A stretch of DNA of 32,678 nt, from positions 1 through 32,678 of IMG/VR virus record IMGVR_UViG_3300045107_000878, one strand, 5' to 3'. The DNA comes from a virus. The notes below the pieces were generated by a model. That model did no database searches, was not told where the DNA came from, and worked only from the letters and a program-made list of their open reading frames with translations. The position numbers and the translations under genes were made by a program. Below, piece by piece: positions 1,507-9,721 of this stretch. Position 1 is the first letter of the stretch; each line of letters begins with the position of its first letter.

Positions 1507-2277
1507 ATGGGAATCGATCTCAACCACGGCTCCGGCTTCATCTATGGCCGCATCGGCCACGCGATCAGCGTGTCCGATCGGGTCAATGCCCTGATCGATG
1601 CAGCGCTCGTCGCACGCAATCGCCGGCAGACGCCGCGCGATTATCTCGGGGGCAGCCGGATCGGCGAGCCCTGCGCGCGCAAGCTCGTCTACGAGGTGAC
1701 CCATACACCGAAGGATGAGGGACAGGATTTCGATGGCGCGATCCTGCGCATCTTCGACGCCGGCCACCAGTTCGAGACGCTCTCCATCCGCTGGCTGCGC
1801 GGCGCGGGCTTCGACCTTCGCACCGAGCGCGGCGACGGCGGACAATTCGGGTTCGAGGCGGCGGGCGGCAAGCTGCGCGGCCACATCGACGGCGTAATCG
1901 TCGCCGGTCCCGATGTCGGTCTGCGCTGGCCTGTGCTCTGGGAGCACAAGACGCTCAACGCCAAATCCTGGAACGACCTCGTCAAGCGTGGCTTACGCAC
2001 CTCCAAGCCAGTCTACTTCGCGCAGGTCCAGCTCTACATGGGCTATCTGGAGCTGGAGACCGCCCTCGTCACGACCCTGAACAAGGACACCGAGGCGCTC
2101 CACCACGAGGTGGTCGCGTTCGATCCGCCCTGCGCGCAGGCGCTGTCCGACAAGGCCGTCGATATCCTGCGCGCTGCGGCAGCCGGCGATCTCCCACCAC
2201 GGATCGCCGCAGCCCGGGACTTCTATCTCTGCCGCATGTGCGCCTATGCGGAGCGCTGCTGGGAGGGCGAGCGATGA
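1507..2277 (+). CDS. PD-(D/E)XK nuclease, Cas4/RecB-like, with probable Fe-S cluster
   Basis: 256 residues from ATG 1507, chosen because a strong Shine-Dalgarno (GAGGTGG, about 1497-1503) precedes it; an in-frame TTG at 1495 only adds four residues. The nuclease core is visible: D128 in HIDG and E146-x-K148 in WEHKT, the D ... ExK signature of the RecB/Cas4 superfamily. Four cysteines, C56 (GEPCARK) near the N-terminus and C242, C245, C251 (CRMCAYAERC) at the end, match the split [4Fe-4S] arrangement of Cas4 and AddB-type nucleases. A role in end resection for phage recombination is likely, given the SSB-like gene upstream and the helicase that follows with an ATGA overlap. The superfamily call is firm; the substrate polarity is unknown. 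Confidence 0.85.
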   Translation: MGIDLNHGSGFIYGRIGHAISVSDRVNALIDAALVARNRRQTPRDYLGGSRIGEPCARKLVYEVTHTPKDEGQDFDGAILRIFDAGHQFETLSIRWLRGAGFDLRTERGDGGQFGFEAAGGKLRGHIDGVIVAGPDVGLRWPVLWEHKTLNAKSWNDLVKRGLRTSKPVYFAQVQLYMGYLELETALVTTLNKDTEALHHEVVAFDPPCAQALSDKAVDILRAAAAGDLPPRIAAARDFYLCRMCAYAERCWEGER

Positions 2278-3554
2278 GCTTCATCCCGTCTCCGCAGCAG
2301 GCGGCGGCAATCGCCGCGATCGAGGACTGGTTTCGGCGCCGCACGCGCGATCAGCAGGTGTTCCGCCTGTTCGGTTACGCAGGAACGGGCAAGACCACCA
2401 TCACCCGGCATGCGATCGGCGAGCTCGGTCTCGAACCGATGGATCGCACGGGCGGCTCGGGCGGCGTGCTCTATGCCGCCTTCACCGGCAAGGCGGCCCT
2501 GGTGATGACCCGGAAGGGAACGCCAGCCTCGACGATCCACAGCCTGATCTACAAGGTCTCCGAGGCGACGCCCGAGGAGATCGAGCGTGTCACCCGCGAA
2601 CTGGAATCGCTTCGCGGCGGCCTGCGCGCAATGGGACCGGCCGAGCGTTCCTTCGCGGAGACCCAGATCCGCCGCCTTAAGTTCCGGCTCGCCGACATCC
2701 ATCAGCCTCGTTTCATTCTGAACGAGCAGTCGCTGGTCCGCGACGCCGACCTGATCGTGCTCGACGAGGTCTCCATGGTCGGCGCCGAAATGGCGAGCGA
2801 TCTGCTCGCCTTCGGCAAGCCGATCCTGGTGCTCGGCGACCCCGGCCAGTTGCCGCCGATCAAGGGCGACGGCGCCTTCACCGACGCCGATCCCGACGTG
2901 ATGCTGACCGATATCCATCGCCAGGCGGAGACCAGCGCGATCATCCGTCTCGCCACGCTCGCACGGCAGAGCGTGCCCATTCCCTACGGCGAGCACGACG
3001 ACTTCGTCTGGAAGATGCGGCGCTCCGACATCGGCCCGCATCAATTCCTCAAGGGCGGTCAGGTGATCTGCGGCCGCAACGCGACGCGGCTCTTTTTGAA
3101 TACCGCGATGAAACAGGCAGCCGGCTTTCCAGACGCTTATCCGCGCGGGCTCGGCGAGAAGATCATCTGCCTCAAGAACCGGCACGATCTCGGTCTCGTC
3201 AACGGCATGTTCCTCGACCTGTCGGACATCCGCGACGAAAGCCCGCTCGCCTTCAGCGCGTCGGTGCGCACCGAGGACGGGACGAGCGTCCCCGGCCGCC
3301 AGTGGTTCTACAAGGGCCATTTCGACGACCACGTAGCCTACGACGCCGAGCGCCTGCGCCGCGATTGGCGTGACATGCGGGGACTTGTCGAGAGCGTCTG
3401 GGGCTACGCCATCACCTGCCACAAGGCTCAAGGGTCGCAGTGGGAGAACGTGATCGTCTACGACGACGGTCTCGGGCGGACCGCCGAGGACCGCGCCCGC
3501 TGGCTCTACACCGCCATTACGCGCGCGGAGCAAGGGCTGGTGATCCTTGATTGA
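2274..3554 (+). CDS. RecD/Dda-like SF1 ATP-dependent DNA helicase
   Basis: 426 residues from ATG 2274, which overlaps the nuclease stop (ATGA). Walker A is GYAGTGKTT at residues 34-42, Walker B DEVS at 164-167, motif III GDPGQLPP from 188, and the UvrD_C_2 motif with CHKAQGSQW around K384, followed by TAITRA near residue 415. This set is typical of superfamily 1B helicases of the RecD2/Dda type, which move 5' to 3' on ssDNA. The length (about 430) fits the small phage Dda-like members without a large N-terminal extension. Coupled translation with the Cas4-like nuclease suggests the two act together in end processing or replication restart. The last bases overlap the start of the primase-helicase gene by 8 nt. 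Confidence 0.88.
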   Translation: MSFIPSPQQAAAIAAIEDWFRRRTRDQQVFRLFGYAGTGKTTITRHAIGELGLEPMDRTGGSGGVLYAAFTGKAALVMTRKGTPASTIHSLIYKVSEATPEEIERVTRELESLRGGLRAMGPAERSFAETQIRRLKFRLADIHQPRFILNEQSLVRDADLIVLDEVSMVGAEMASDLLAFGKPILVLGDPGQLPPIKGDGAFTDADPDVMLTDIHRQAETSAIIRLATLARQSVPIPYGEHDDFVWKMRRSDIGPHQFLKGGQVICGRNATRLFLNTAMKQAAGFPDAYPRGLGEKIICLKNRHDLGLVNGMFLDLSDIRDESPLAFSASVRTEDGTSVPGRQWFYKGHFDDHVAYDAERLRRDWRDMRGLVESVWGYAITCHKAQGSQWENVIVYDDGLGRTAEDRARWLYTAITRAEQGLVILD

Positions 3555-6474
3555 CTTCAACGACATCGCACCCGCCAGAACGCCTGCGGTTCAATACGAT
3601 CTCGAGGCCATCGTGGCCGGCCTGCGTGACAGGACCGGCGCCTGGGTGCCGCAGCACTTTCCGAACGGCCGTCGCAACGGCGACGAATGGCGCCTCGCCA
3701 ACATCAATGGCGCTGCGCCGCGAAAGAACGGCTCCTGCGTGATCACGCTCAGAGGCGAGCACGCCGGCGACTGGATCGACTTCGACGGCGGCCAGGGCGG
3801 CGGGCCGCTAAGCACGCTGGAACAGGCGACCGGCCTCAAGGGCCGCGATCTTTTTGCCTATGCCGCCGATCTGGTCGGATGGTCGGCTGCGGCGCCAGCC
3901 CGGCGTGAACCCTCGGCGGCTTCCGCGAAACATGAGAAAGACTCTGCTCGAGAAATCGAGATCATCCTCTCGCGGGCCCTCCCGATCGCCGGTACGCCGG
4001 GCGAGGCCTATCTGCGCGCGCGAGGTCTCACGGTTCCGCCACCGTCCGACCTCCTGTTCCATCCGGATCTCGCGCATTGGGATACGAGGACCGGGTTCCC
4101 AGCAATCGTCGGCCTGGTTCGCGACCGCGCCGGTAGCGTGGTTGCCCTGCACCGCATCTACCTGCGGCCGGATGGGGCTGCGAAAGCCGAGGTTGAAAAG
4201 CCGAAGAAGATGCTGGGCCGCGTCGGCGGTGGCGCCGTGCGGCTGGCCTCGATCGGCGGCGACGCTGTCCTTGGTCTCAGCGAAGGCATCGAGACGGCGC
4301 TCGCCGTGATGACGGCCTGCCCGGGCATGGCGGTATGGGCGACGCTCTCGGCCACCAACCTCGAACAGATCGTCCTGCCGCCAGAGGCCCGGCGTGTCGT
4401 TTTGCTCGCCGACCACGATGCGTCGGGCACGGGCCTTCGTGCCGCCCAGGCGGCGGCGCGGCGTCTCCTGGCCGAAGGCCGCAGCGTCGCCATCGCCCTG
4501 CCGCGAGCGGAAGGCGATGACTTCAACGACGTCCTGCTGCGCGACGGCGCGGACGCGGTCCGTCAGATCATCGACGCGGCCGAGCCGTATGCAGTGGTGG
4601 ATGGCACGGATGCGCAGGATGGCGCTCGAAACCGTCCGATCGGCTTCGTCGAGCCGCCGGGCCGCTTGCCGCAACTGCGCGCCGATGAGGGCGATCTCGC
4701 CCGCGCCCACGCACGCAGCTGGAGTCTGCTGCTCGCGTCGAACAGGACGCCCTGGCTCTTTCGCAGCGGCGGCATGCCGACCTGGGCCGTGCATGACGAT
4801 GACGGCCTGCCCATGGCCCGGCCCGTCACGGAAGAGCGCCTGCGCCACATGCTGGCCAAGCTCGCCGATTGGCGGCGTCTGGCGCGAAACGGCGATCTCG
4901 TCCCCGCGCATCCACCAACGCCGCTGATCAAGTCGCTGCTGGCGACGCCGGACCCGGGCCTGCCGGTGCTGGCGGGGATCGTCACCACGCCGGTCTTCGG
5001 CCGCAATGGCGCGCTCCTGACCGAGCCCGGTTACCACCCCGATGCCCGACTGCTCTACCAGCCCACACCGGGATTTGCCGTGCCGCAGGTGCCGGAGCGC
5101 CCGTCGCCGGCGGAGATCGCGACCGCGCGCAGTTTCATCGTCGACGACATGTTGGGCGAGTTCCCCTTCACCGGCCACGCGGAGCGGGCGCATGCCGTTG
5201 CCCTGATGCTTCTCGGCTTTCTTCGCGCCATGATTGACGCGCCGGCGCCGCTCCATCTGATCGAAAAGCCGACACCCGGCACCGGTGCGACGCTGATGGT
5301 CGACGCAATCGCGACCGTGCTCACCGGTGTCGGCGCCTCCGTCATGACCGAGGGCCGCGACGATGAAGAGTGGCGCAAGCGGCTGACCGCCAAGCTGCGC
5401 CAGATCCCCTCGATCGTGCTCATCGACAATCTGCGTCACACGCTCGACTCCTCGGCGCTTGCGGCAGCGCTCACCGCGCCCTTCTGGGAGGACCGCATTC
5501 TCGGGGCGTCTGAGATGACGCGATTGCCGATCCGCTGCGTCTGGATCGCGACCGGCAACAATCCCGAATTCTCCAACGAGATGGCGCGCCGCATCGTGCG
5601 CATCCGGCTCGATGCTCGTGTGGATCAACCCTGGCGGCGCGAGGGGTTCCGCCACCCCGATCTCATGAGCTGGGTTCGCGCCAACCGGCCGCGCCTCGTC
5701 GCGGCCTGCCTTACGCTGTGCCGGGCCTGGCTGGCCGCCGGCAGGCCACGGGGCGCGCGCATGATCGGGAGCTACGAGAGCTGGTCGCGCATCATGGGCG
5801 GCGTCCTCGAGGTCGCCGGGATCGAAGGGTTTCTCGCCAACCTCGACGAGATGCTCGCTGCCGCCGATGGCGAGGGCGCGATCTGGCGCAGTTTCATCGG
5901 CGCCTGGTGGGACCGCTTCGGGACGGCGGAGGTCGGCACCGGCGATCTCTACGAGGTGGCGTTGGCCTGCGAGCCCCCGCTGCCGCTGGGCGCCGGGGGC
6001 GACCGCTCACAGCGCACACGGCTCGGCAAGGCGCTCGCCCGCATGCGCGACCGGGTCTTCGATATCGACGGCCGCAAGATGCGCGTGCGCACGCTGGGGG
6101 TCTCCCATCAGGCCAAGCGCTGGCAGCTCACAATCGAAGGGGAACGTGGGGAACGTTTTCCGCAAGGTGTCGCGGCATCGGGCGGGGAACGTTGTGGCGA
6201 GGAGGGGAACGTCGAAAACCAACGTTCCCCGGCACAACCCATTGAAACAAAAGGCTCCGGGGAACGTGGGGAACATGGGGAACGTTTTTCGACACTAACG
6301 CATGTGCGCGGCTGCGCCCACGCGATGGAGGATGGGGAAAAACGTTCCCCACCTTCGTCACCTTCCCAAAGCGCTTGTTCCTCAACGGCTTGCACCGGGG
6401 AACGTGCGGGGGAACATCCCTCACCACGTTCCCCGAACGGCGCTGCGCCGGACTGGCTCAAGGAGGTGCTCTGA
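3547..6474 (+). CDS. Phage primase-helicase fusion (Toprim plus AAA-like helicase)
   Basis: 975 residues from a TTG at 3547, overlapping the helicase stop by 8 nt; the first in-frame alternative I see is GTG 3613, which would trim a conserved-looking N-terminus. Residues 1 to about 120 hold a primase-associated domain (DEWRLANING, GDWIDFDGGQGGG). A Toprim domain follows, with E246 (LSEGIE) and D289-H-D291 (LADHDASG). From about 550 an ATPase/helicase-like region is seen: PTPGTGATL at 576-584, SIVLIDN, and an ATGNNPEFSNEMARR segment with a likely sensor and arginine finger. The Walker A lysine position is Ala (GTGAT), so ATPase activity is uncertain. From about residue 862 the tail is low-complexity (GERGER, GEHGER) because the DNA holds a 9-bp repeat cluster. 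It probably primes and unwinds at the phage origin. Confidence 0.8.
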   Translation: MIDFNDIAPARTPAVQYDLEAIVAGLRDRTGAWVPQHFPNGRRNGDEWRLANINGAAPRKNGSCVITLRGEHAGDWIDFDGGQGGGPLSTLEQATGLKGRDLFAYAADLVGWSAAAPARREPSAASAKHEKDSAREIEIILSRALPIAGTPGEAYLRARGLTVPPPSDLLFHPDLAHWDTRTGFPAIVGLVRDRAGSVVALHRIYLRPDGAAKAEVEKPKKMLGRVGGGAVRLASIGGDAVLGLSEGIETALAVMTACPGMAVWATLSATNLEQIVLPPEARRVVLLADHDASGTGLRAAQAAARRLLAEGRSVAIALPRAEGDDFNDVLLRDGADAVRQIIDAAEPYAVVDGTDAQDGARNRPIGFVEPPGRLPQLRADEGDLARAHARSWSLLLASNRTPWLFRSGGMPTWAVHDDDGLPMARPVTEERLRHMLAKLADWRRLARNGDLVPAHPPTPLIKSLLATPDPGLPVLAGIVTTPVFGRNGALLTEPGYHPDARLLYQPTPGFAVPQVPERPSPAEIATARSFIVDDMLGEFPFTGHAERAHAVALMLLGFLRAMIDAPAPLHLIEKPTPGTGATLMVDAIATVLTGVGASVMTEGRDDEEWRKRLTAKLRQIPSIVLIDNLRHTLDSSALAAALTAPFWEDRILGASEMTRLPIRCVWIATGNNPEFSNEMARRIVRIRLDARVDQPWRREGFRHPDLMSWVRANRPRLVAACLTLCRAWLAAGRPRGARMIGSYESWSRIMGGVLEVAGIEGFLANLDEMLAAADGEGAIWRSFIGAWWDRFGTAEVGTGDLYEVALACEPPLPLGAGGDRSQRTRLGKALARMRDRVFDIDGRKMRVRTLGVSHQAKRWQLTIEGERGERFPQGVAASGGERCGEEGNVENQRSPAQPIETKGSGERGEHGERFSTLTHVRGCAHAMEDGEKRSPPSSPSQSACSSTACTGERAGEHPSPRSPNGAAPDWLKEVL
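6139..6434. repeat. Cluster of GGGGAACGT motifs in both orientations, candidate replication origin iterons
   Basis: Exact GGGGAACGT occurs on the plus strand at 6139, 6148, 6184, 6204, 6259, 6277 and 6397, and as its complement ACGTTCCCC at 6222, 6342 and 6426. Two GGGGAACAT variants lie at 6268 and 6409. That is ten exact and two near copies in 296 bp. The motif is a half-site of the palindrome GGGGAACGTTCCCC, and several copies extend towards it (AACGTT core). Most plus copies lie in codon frame (Gly-Glu-Arg), but the one at 6204 is in another frame and three are inverted, so the repeat is kept at DNA level rather than for the protein. A slightly A-rich stretch lies at 6241-6252. Position inside the 3' end of a replication gene matches lambda-type origins. 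Confidence 0.7.
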
Positions 6475-7121
6475 TGGGCATGCTCCGTCAACTCGGCCGT
6501 CTCCCGGCCGCAGCGACCGGTCCGCCGCGATGGGTCTTCGATCCGAAAGCCGACCCTTGCCCGCGCGCCTTGGAGACACTCATGATTTCGACCATCGAAA
6601 CCGGCCCCGCCGAAGCGGGAGCCACCGCATTCCGCCCGCATCCGGCTCATGCGCGGCGCGCCATTCTCAGCCTCGACCTCGGCACCACGACCGGCTGGGC
6701 ACTGCGCAGCCATGACGGCCTTATCACTAGCGGCACGGTCTCGTTCCGGCCGAGCCGCTATGACGGTGGCGGCATGCGCTACCTGCGCTTCCGGAGCTGG
6801 CTGGACCAGATCACTGCCGACGCCGGCGGTCTCGCGGCGATCTATTTCGAGGAGGTCCGGCGCCATATCGGCACTGACGCGGCCCATCTCTATGGCGGCT
6901 TTCTGGCGACGCTGAGCGCTTGGTGCGAGAGCCACGCGATCGCCTATCAGGGCGTTCCCGTCGGCACGATCAAGCGGCACGTCGCCGCCAAGGGCAACGC
7001 CGACAAGGCCGCCGTCATGGCTGCCGTTCGCGCGCGCGGCTTCTCGCCCGCGGACGACAATGAAGCCGACGCCATCGCCATTCTGCTCTGGGCCATCGAG
7101 ACCGATGGAGGTGTGCGATGA
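6474..7121 (+). CDS. RuvC-like Holliday junction resolvase
   Basis: 215 residues from ATG 6474, which overlaps the primase stop (TGATG) and follows a strong Shine-Dalgarno AGGAGGTG at 6461-6468. The RNase H-like fold of the RuvC family is seen: D68 in LSLDLGTTTGWA, E126/E127 in YFEEV, and the C-terminal DDNEADA cluster with D194, D195, E197 and D199. Residues in between (TIKRHVAAKGNADKAAV) match the usual basic helix of phage RuvC-like proteins. The N-terminal 60 residues before the first catalytic strand look disordered, and an internal ATG at 6582 could give a shorter form; the ribosome site favours 6474. It should resolve branched DNA before packaging or during recombination. Confidence 0.8.
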   Translation: MGMLRQLGRLPAAATGPPRWVFDPKADPCPRALETLMISTIETGPAEAGATAFRPHPAHARRAILSLDLGTTTGWALRSHDGLITSGTVSFRPSRYDGGGMRYLRFRSWLDQITADAGGLAAIYFEEVRRHIGTDAAHLYGGFLATLSAWCESHAIAYQGVPVGTIKRHVAAKGNADKAAVMAAVRARGFSPADDNEADAIAILLWAIETDGGVR

Positions 7122-8005: not shown

Positions 8006-8398
8006 TGCGTGAGACAATTTTTGCTGAGACATTTCCCGGCGAGACACAGATCGGCGATTTGGGCTAGTTCTCGGGTATGCTCGGGCGAGCCGCGTGCGGC
8101 GACGACCACCGACCGGCGATGCACGGTTCCTCCCTGGCCGAAATCGTATGCTGGCGGCAATGGCGCGACGCTTGCCCAGTGACGGCGCCGAAATAGGCCA
8201 TTTCGTTTCGCCAGCATCCTCGCGCTCGTGAATCCAAACACTTAGGCGTCTGCGTGCCTCGGCGATGGCGAAGCCGCCGGTCGGGGGCGTTTCGTTTCGA
8301 GCGCATTGACGAAGCGGGACCCGTTTCGCCGGCGCAGCACAACGGCGGGCTTTCGCGACCGCCGGATCAGATCCTTCACCCATCGCACCGGACCGACC
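8006..8398. other. 393-bp non-coding gap, possible insertion-element remnant or regulatory region
   Basis: No convincing gene lies here on either strand; minus-strand ORFs run through it but continue antisense into the methyltransferase gene. Notable content: GAGACA at 8011, 8026 and 8041, exactly 15 bp apart; TTTCGTTTCG at 8201 and again at 8290; and a run of lower GC around 8011-8035. Multiple short direct repeats at regular spacing are typical of the ends of IS21-family elements, and the text of this region looks to me like such an end, but no transposase is present and I see no second end in the window. It could equally hold operators and a promoter for the methyltransferase gene. Confidence 0.4.
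8011..8046. repeat. Three GAGACA direct repeats with exact 15-bp period
   Basis: GAGACA begins at 8011, 8026 and 8041. The intervening bases differ between units apart from the first two, which share a T-rich part after the hexamer (AATTTTT and TTTCCC). The array begins 5 bases after the stop of the DUF6362-like gene. Either a protein-binding array or the multiple terminal repeats of an insertion sequence end. Confidence 0.5.
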
Positions 8399-9721
8399 AT
8401 GGACGTCGTCGAAACGCCGATCGACAAGCTTGTGCCCTATGCGCGCAACCCGCGCCGCAACGAGGAGGCTGTCGCCACGGTCGCCGCCTCGCTGGCCGAG
8501 TTCGGCTGGCGACAGCCGATCGTCGTCGACGAGGACATGGTGATCGTCGTCGGCCACACCCGGTACGAGGCGGCCAAGCGCCTCGGCATGACGAGCGTGC
8601 CGGTGCATGTCGCCCATGGCCTGACGCCGGCGCAGCTGCGCGCCTACCGGCTGATGGACAACCGCTCGCATCAGAATGCGAGCTGGGATGACGAGCTGCT
8701 CAAGCTCGAACTGGCCGATCTGAAGCTCGACGAGTTCGACCTGGCGCTGACCGGTTTCGAGGACGACGAACTGGCCCGTCTCCTGGCCGAGGCGCCCGGC
8801 GAGGGGCTGGTGGACGAAGACGAGGTTCCGGAACCGCCCGCCACGCCCGTCACCCGCCGCGGCGATCTCTGGATCCTCGGGGACCACCGCCTGCTCTGCG
8901 GAGACTCGACTTCGGTCGAGGACGTCACCCGCCTGATGAACGGCGAACGCGCCGCACTGTTTGCGACCGATCCACCCTATCTCGTCGACTATGACGGCAC
9001 CAACCATCCGACGAAGAAGAACGCGTCCGCCCGCGCCAAGAAGATCGCGAACAAGGACTGGTCCGAGGACTACATCGAGCAGAAGCACTGGGACGATTCA
9101 TCTCAGGGGCCGCAGTTCTATGAAGCGTTCATGCAGGTCGCCATCGACTGCGCCATCAAGGAGGACGCGGCCTGGTATTGCTGGCATGCCTCGCGGCGCC
9201 AGGCGATGCTGGAAGCCTGCTGGTCGAAGTTCGACGTTCTGCATCACCAGCAGATCATCTGGGCCAAGAGCCGTCCGGTGCTCACGCGCTCGATCATGCT
9301 GTGGGCGCACGAGCCCTGCCTGTTCGGCTGGCGCTCGGGCAACAAGCCGCGCGTCAATCGCGAAGGCTTCGAGAACTGGCCGACGACGGTGTGGTCCATC
9401 CCGTCGAGCGAGATCGAGACGCGCGAGCACCCGACCTCGAAACCGGTGCGCGTGTTCACGCTGCCGATGGAGCTGCACACCGTGCCGGGGGAAATCTGCT
9501 ACGAGCCCTTCTCGGGCTCGGGCTCGCAGATCATCGCGGGCGAGCGCACGGGGAGACGCGTCTACGGCCTCGAACTCTCCGAGACCTTTTGTGACGTGAT
9601 CGTCAACCGCTGGCAGGCCTTCACGGGGAAATCGGCAAGGCTGGAGGGCGAGAATCGCAGCTTCGACAAGGTGAAGACCGAGCGCATCGGCGCTCGTGAC
9701 GGCGATCAGGACGCCGCATGA
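8399..9721 (+). CDS. DNA methyltransferase with N-terminal ParB-like domain
   Basis: 440 residues from ATG 8399. An in-frame TTG at 8306 would add 31 residues of arginine-rich sequence; 8399 is preferred because ParB-like domains usually begin just before the VETPIDKLVPYARNPR segment. Residues 1-100 are ParB/sulfiredoxin-like (FGWRQPIVVDE, VVGHTRYEAAKRLG). The methyltransferase has DPPY at 191-194 before FSGSG at 371-375, the order of beta-class amino-methyltransferases acting on adenine N6 or cytosine N4. No restriction gene is adjacent, so it is an orphan phage enzyme that probably protects the phage genome or marks it; the target site cannot be read from sequence. The next gene overlaps by ATGA. 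Confidence 0.85.
   Translation: MDVVETPIDKLVPYARNPRRNEEAVATVAASLAEFGWRQPIVVDEDMVIVVGHTRYEAAKRLGMTSVPVHVAHGLTPAQLRAYRLMDNRSHQNASWDDELLKLELADLKLDEFDLALTGFEDDELARLLAEAPGEGLVDEDEVPEPPATPVTRRGDLWILGDHRLLCGDSTSVEDVTRLMNGERAALFATDPPYLVDYDGTNHPTKKNASARAKKIANKDWSEDYIEQKHWDDSSQGPQFYEAFMQVAIDCAIKEDAAWYCWHASRRQAMLEACWSKFDVLHHQQIIWAKSRPVLTRSIMLWAHEPCLFGWRSGNKPRVNREGFENWPTTVWSIPSSEIETREHPTSKPVRVFTLPMELHTVPGEICYEPFSGSGSQIIAGERTGRRVYGLELSETFCDVIVNRWQAFTGKSARLEGENRSFDKVKTERIGARDGDQDAA

Follow-up and report, generated by a model that had tools for sequence, protein, structure and literature searches.

The alpha protein of P4 (NC_001609; OBD structure 1KA8) combines a Toprim-type primase, a helicase and a C-terminal DNA-binding domain in one protein, and ten type 1 repeats, mostly GGTGAACA and in both orientations, are found in a region of 300 bp that lies immediately beyond the 3' end of the alpha gene. 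The Rep protein of SaPI elements recognises, by its C-terminal domain, iterons situated directly downstream of its own gene (PMC7581432), and at lambda ori the iterons lie within the coding sequence of the initiator, gene O (PMC7466680). Covariation of iterons with residues or domains of the initiator has been described for the iteron-related domain of geminivirus Rep (PMC10653810) and for the RepA_N/ori modules of PLE (PMC8263062). Here we analysed a virus record of 32,678 nucleotides (IMGVR_UViG_3300045107_000878, hereafter the window) that carries an array of 9-bp iterons inside the end of a primase-helicase gene. This array is most probably the replication origin of a temperate phage, recognised by the C-terminal winged helix of its own self-loading primase-helicase.

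The original prediction, made from the letters of the window alone, had described ten exact copies (seven plus and three minus) and two one-mismatch copies of a 9-bp motif, GGGGAACGT, within 296 bp, with irregular spacings of 9, 36, 20, 18 and 120 bp. Our motif search gave the same counts and the same spacings, and both one-mismatch copies, at 6268+ and 6409+, read GGGGAACAT. In shuffled sequence of 32.7 kb, 7.9 matches with at most one mismatch were obtained, so that about 0.07 would be expected per 296 bp, compared with 12 observed. The array lies within the last 112 codons of the gene, and no exact copy was detected in the rest of the window, which is a virus record and may be incomplete. 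In two host chromosomes of 3-4 Mb, only 3 and 16 scattered copies were found outside the cluster. We did not see any AT-rich unwinding element in the array, and the GC skew of the window was uninformative: it merely dips to a shallow local minimum at 6-7 kb, and a comparable low is seen where the contig ends. The coordinates of the features are given in Table 1.

Table 1. Features of the primase-helicase locus and of the iteron array in the window.
Feature	Coordinates	Strand	Basis
Primase-helicase gene, 975 aa, TTG start	3547..6474	+	Pfam/PHROGs matches, fold search
C-terminal winged-helix domain (aa 766-868), proposed iteron-binding domain	5842..6150	+	AF2 pLDDT 86.9; covariation
Recognition helix (aa 819-835); 820, 824, 828 covary with iteron positions 6, 7, 8	6001..6051	+	AF2, covariation
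Wing hairpin (aa 843-863); tip 854-856 covaries with iteron positions 1, 3, 5	6073..6135	+	AF2, covariation
Iteron array, proposed replication origin	6139..6434	.	inside coding tail; motif search and relatives
Iteron GGGGAACGT	6139..6147	+	exact match
Iteron GGGGAACGT	6148..6156	+	exact match
Iteron GGGGAACGT	6184..6192	+	exact match
Iteron GGGGAACGT	6204..6212	+	exact match
Iteron GGGGAACGT, inverted	6222..6230	-	exact match
Left core triplet: tandem 9-bp iterons at 6259, 6268 (GGGGAACAT), 6277	6259..6285	+	motif search
Central 56-bp spacer of dyad, flanked by TTTT and AAAA	6286..6341	.	sequence
Right core triplet, inverted	6342..6368	-	exact copy at 6342 in window
Iteron GGGGAACGT	6397..6405	+	exact match
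Iteron GGGGAACAT	6409..6417	+	one mismatch
Iteron GGGGAACGT, inverted	6426..6434	-	exact match
RuvC-like resolvase gene, probable ATG start 6474	6474..7121	+	sequence; PHROG RuvC-like match

The protein is composed of a primase part (DUF7146 and Toprim_3), an AAA+ part resembling D5 and SaPI Rep, a C-terminal winged helix and the coding tail that bears the array. In a fold search, the AF2 model of aa 361-868 matched NrS-1 CTR, PriRep1, D5/E5 and the SaPI5 primase-helicase with E-values between 5e-6 and 4e-4 and a probability of about 1; the TM-scores were modest (0.3-0.4). In the model of aa 766-868 we observed helices, among them the recognition helix, followed by a two-stranded wing hairpin (843-853/856-863). 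A Foldseek search with this domain by itself turned up winged-helix folds at weak scores only (E of 0.6 or more), and searches of PDB sequences with the whole protein and with domain profiles returned no solved relative. At the 3' end of the gene, the probable start of the resolvase overlaps the primase stop in the sequence TGATG, with AAGGAGG just upstream; this overlap would account for a primase ORF that stays open across the array. The gene directly before that of the primase-helicase (2238-3554) encodes a RecD2/Dda-like SF1 helicase and is present in 134 of the 146 relatives described below; it is probably a fixed partner of the replication module.

Scans of viral and genome sequences yielded 146 distinct loci that could be used, with an effective number of 67 at 90% identity; they are prophages and viral contigs, for the most part from Alphaproteobacteria. 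An array is present, for instance, in the lysogen Erythrobacter cryptus DSM 12079 (C3:350445-350740). Each locus was required to hold at least 7 copies within one mismatch of its consensus, and two further loci with fewer copies were left out. About 12 nine-bp repeats are found at the same place in all 146 loci, with positions and orientations that are largely conserved. Taking window position 6067 as offset 0, the common sites are 117+ 137+ 155- / 192+ 201+ 210+ / 275- 284- 293- / 330+ 342+ 359/368-, with small shifts. At the core of this geometry, two triplets of tandem 9-mers face each other across a gap of about 56 bp, and outer sites are added to them. The position of the left triplet of the window is kept in most relatives; the right one is degenerate in the window at 6351 (GACGAAGGT) and 6360 (TGGGAAGGT), while many relatives have three good copies there.

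The iteron itself changes from one lineage to another (GGGGAACCT, TGTGAACCT, GGTGAATGT, GGGGAGGAT and others), and within one locus most copies carry the same lineage-specific 9-mer. More than 30 iteron types occur in the data set. With rare exceptions they follow the pattern [GTC]G[GT]G[AG][AG][CTG][GCAT]T, in which G2 and G4 are invariant. For the exact copies, a single cluster was found in the window as well as in each of eight further records of this phage type (38-45 kb). The motif had been read at first as half of a palindrome. That reading was not supported: GGGGAACGTTCCCC is not present in the array, nowhere does a plus copy overlap a minus copy so as to create it, and the repeat of the relatives is a non-palindromic 9-mer, for example GGGGAACCT or TGTGAGCCT. 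To judge from these sequences, the resemblance to a palindrome is a coincidence of the one variant found in the window. The pattern search also returned five loci without a primase match. In three of them (L087, L111 and L114) the array lies at a contig edge, and another (L103) is a collagen-like gene that matches by chance. A short tandem of GGGGAACGT 9-mers (L113:5142-5168) stands in an unrelated context, with a weak match to the N-terminal part of the primase only, and perhaps belongs to a different replicon with a similar iteron.

We then compared the alignment columns of the protein (aa 1-875) with the iteron consensus of each locus, using a background-corrected (APC) covariation score. 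For iteron positions 1, 3 and 5-8, the top columns all lie in the C-terminal domain (APC z from 5.6 to 15): columns 854/855 go with positions 1 and 3, 856 with position 5, 820 with position 6, 824 with position 7 and 828 with position 8. At position 3, G is found with H854 and T with R/Q854, and 144 of the 146 loci fit this rule. Position 5 carries A with A856 and G with T856 (142/146 loci), and position 6 carries A with R/K820 and G with Q/N/T820 (142/146). At position 7, C accompanies T824, T accompanies I824 and G accompanies V/A824 in 136 of the 146 loci.

The same pairs were followed along a tree built from aa 1-780, so that the covarying winged-helix residues were excluded from it. At position 5, each of the 11 changes falls on a branch where residue 856 changes too, and at position 3 the same holds for 16-17 of the 20 changes and residues 854/855; for the other positions, the changes shared with the matching residue are 16/21 (position 8), 11/22 (position 7), 10/13 (position 6) and 13/21 (position 1). 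The p-values for the winged-helix residues range from 4e-8 to 1e-16. The test weighs all branches equally and these values are therefore indicative, the real control being the empirical null given by other columns. The other 765 columns, from the primase and ATPase parts, reach a p of 3.9e-4 at best, and those of seven neighbouring proteins 4.6e-5. Since the array closely follows the winged-helix codons and the 3' end could thus move as a block, a control tree was built from non-contact C-terminal columns; the same residues came out on top, with p from 5e-7 to 2e-14; at position 6, Q822 narrowly outranked R820. None of the covarying codons (6004-6114) overlaps an iteron.

When whole clusters at 85% identity were left out, the code predicted the iteron better than the nearest relative did at positions 3, 5, 6, 7 and 8, and position 1 was predicted no better than by relatedness. 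Clusters at 75-80% identity were uninformative for this purpose, as single linkage merges nearly all loci. In the AF2 model (pLDDT 87), the covarying residues are placed on the recognition helix, with i, i+4, i+8 spacing, and on the wing tip. Such a pattern is what direct reading of the iteron by the modelled winged helix predicts, and the array is very probably a binding site for the winged helix of the helicase itself. The covariation thus lends strong support to the initial proposal of a candidate iteron origin, located in a replication gene and bound by the primase-helicase. No dedicated initiator had been seen at that stage, and the most likely initiator now appears to be the C-terminal domain of the same protein.

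Distant homologues were found in an Azospirillum plasmid prophage, in a Methylobacterium plasmid and in viral relatives of these. In these, tandem 9-mers (AGTGGGTTT, AGGGGGTTT, TAGGGGTTT), two or three in number, are opposed by inverted copies, and the repeats lie in the non-coding DNA that directly follows the helicase stop codon. Since the arrays of these homologues, of P4 and of SaPI all lie 3' of the gene, a downstream origin seems to be the common plan, and the ORF of the window's clade would have been extended through it. In six of the homologous loci (L335, L336, L337, L339, L340 and L341), the spacer between the facing triplets holds AACTGTCA, within about 200 bp after the helicase stop, and most of them also have a matching TGACAGTT, which makes an inverted repeat; a second protein may bind there in origins of this type. 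In large lytic phages of Ruegeria and Rhodobacter with about 35% identity (L332, L333), no array was found near the gene.

Among the described systems, P4 alpha and SaPI Rep come closest, and, on the sequence comparisons, the window most probably encodes a primase-helicase of this self-loading kind and carries the iteron origin that serves it. It shares with P4 alpha the Toprim-type architecture, and the P4 type 1 repeats fit [GTC]G[GT]G[AG][AG]NN, the superpattern of the window's family. By eye, the P4 wing TKQGIQTN also resembles the Q-G wing variants found here (TYQGAQRW, paired with T at position 3). P4 differs in that it is a satellite, whereas the window phage has its own structural genes, and in that crr lies outside the alpha gene and a second iteron cluster (ori) is found elsewhere. 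Membership of the P4 alpha family proper was considered and rejected, as neither hhalign nor the PDB profile search gave sequence homology between the DNA-binding domains: hhalign of the winged helix against the P4 alpha C-terminus returned a probability of 0.07% (single-sequence template), and 1KA8 was absent from the PDB sequence matches of the winged-helix profile and from the fold matches listed. Not all of the recognition code carries over to P4 alpha. With the self-loading initiator helicases SaPI Rep, the SaPI5 primase-helicase (7ola) and SCCmec Cch2, the protein shares the AAA+ fold match, but there the origin is non-coding and the primase is of the AEP type, not Toprim. The literature searched on SaPI Rep and Cch2 gave no comparable natural recognition code. 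The likeness to lambda ori, put forward originally, holds insofar as the iterons lie inside the initiator gene; however, O is not a helicase, and its iterons are longer inverted repeats beside an AT-rich region, in mid-gene and not in a C-terminal tail. With its 9-bp iterons, a helicase as the proposed initiator and no AT-rich region, the window does not have a lambda-type ori. Geminivirus Rep and PLE RepA_N have protein folds other than that of a winged-helix primase-helicase, and the PLE covariation consists of whole-module swaps, whereas in the window's family single residues match single bases.

The repeats could in principle be the by-product of a repetitive coding tail (Gly-Glu-Arg) without a role as DNA, and most forward copies indeed share one codon frame, reading GER in the window. 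This is refuted by several observations, and we give it practically no chance. Inverted and out-of-frame copies are common, the tail peptides differ according to iteron type, three relatives with shortened tails retain 11 iterons, and homologues carry the array after the stop codon. Between relatives, substitution rates at codon positions 1/2/3 are 0.035/0.025/0.303 in the helicase part but 0.185/0.190/0.218 in the tail outside the iterons, where there is almost no codon-position bias. It had been argued from the outset that protein-level selection cannot explain the array, and these rates and the truncated tails bear this out: on the sequence evidence the DNA, not the protein, is under selection, and the coding tail appears to evolve nearly neutrally, under little protein-level constraint. 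Another phage or host protein, a repressor or a partition protein, might instead bind the array, the correlation with the winged helix being due to recombinational hitch-hiking. Since the array abuts the winged-helix codons, within about 25 bp, recombination of the 3' end could indeed shift both together. Yet different iteron positions pick different single residues, all of them on the recognition helix or the wing tip, and winged-helix columns that change often without a contact role score much lower. This specificity and the tree from non-contact columns argue against recombination as the sole cause. A possible example is the product of a gene that lies a few genes past the array (8306-9721) and joins a ParB_N domain to an N6/N4 DNA methylase; it does not show strong covariation with the iterons, and it is among the seven neighbours whose best column reached only the value given above. 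We consider binding by another protein to be very improbable.

A further alternative accepts that the winged helix binds the array and takes the latter as a secondary element that enhances replication or controls copy number, replication itself starting at another place. P4 offers a precedent, as its type 1 repeats occur both in crr, adjacent to alpha, and in a distinct ori some 5 kb from it, and the array of the window lacks an AT-rich element; but a second cluster of exact iterons was found neither in the window nor in the eight phage records of 38-45 kb, and origins of the SaPI type are single arrays directly downstream of rep (PMC7581432). We regard this alternative as unlikely, though less so than the two preceding ones, and the sequence data make origin activity of the array likely.

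In most relatives, the sequence between the facing triplets shows in succession TTTTC, a tract of alternating purines and pyrimidines (CG/CA/TG steps) and GGAAAA. Over the central 85 bp of the 146 loci, the longest alternating run has a median of 27 nt and a weighted mean of 22.7, compared with 6.5 nt in other 85-bp stretches, and it is the longest run of the whole locus in 128 of them. The tract of the window is shorter than this median, 13 nt at 6298-6310. An alternating run of 16 nt, ATGCGCGTGCGCACGC, is found at 6079-6094 in the winged-helix codons and is among the two longest of the window. Alternating purine-pyrimidine tracts are prone to form Z-DNA under negative supercoiling, and we would guess at a role of the central tract in melting or torsional control. 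A literature search on Z-DNA together with phage iteron origins listed no paper that mentions Z-DNA. A wider proposal, that the GC-rich, Z-DNA-prone tract opens the origin in place of an AT-rich element and that lineages have repeatedly shifted, step by step, to new and mutually orthogonal pairs of iteron and winged helix, is tentative and, taken as a whole, somewhat improbable. On this proposal, the stepwise co-substitution of residues and bases would perhaps be driven by competing prophages or by parasites that target the origin.

In the reading that we prefer, with the array as the origin of the phage, one winged helix would bind each 9-bp iteron, with the wing tip (aa 854-856) in contact with positions 1, 3 and 5, and with positions 6, 7 and 8 read through residues 820, 824 and 828 of the recognition helix. 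The facing triplets and the outer iterons may then assemble two helicase rings, which would open the DNA in the central spacer; the two helicases would leave in both directions, and the Toprim domain would prime. We infer direct binding, ring loading, spacer melting and origin activity from the observed array, its geometry, its change between lineages and the covariation. What is unusual here with respect to the described systems is the location of the proposed origin in a neutrally evolving coding tail, the central alternating tract of most relatives and a readable, nearly one-to-one recognition code.

For a large, hitherto uncharacterised group of prophages in Alphaproteobacteria, these results name a putative initiator and a putative origin. 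The central alternating tract poses the question of how a GC-rich origin melts. The loci also constitute a natural data set in which single residues of a winged helix map to single bases of its site, and they make testable the long-standing question of how an initiator and its multi-copy origin can switch specificity in concert, given that about 12 sites have to follow.
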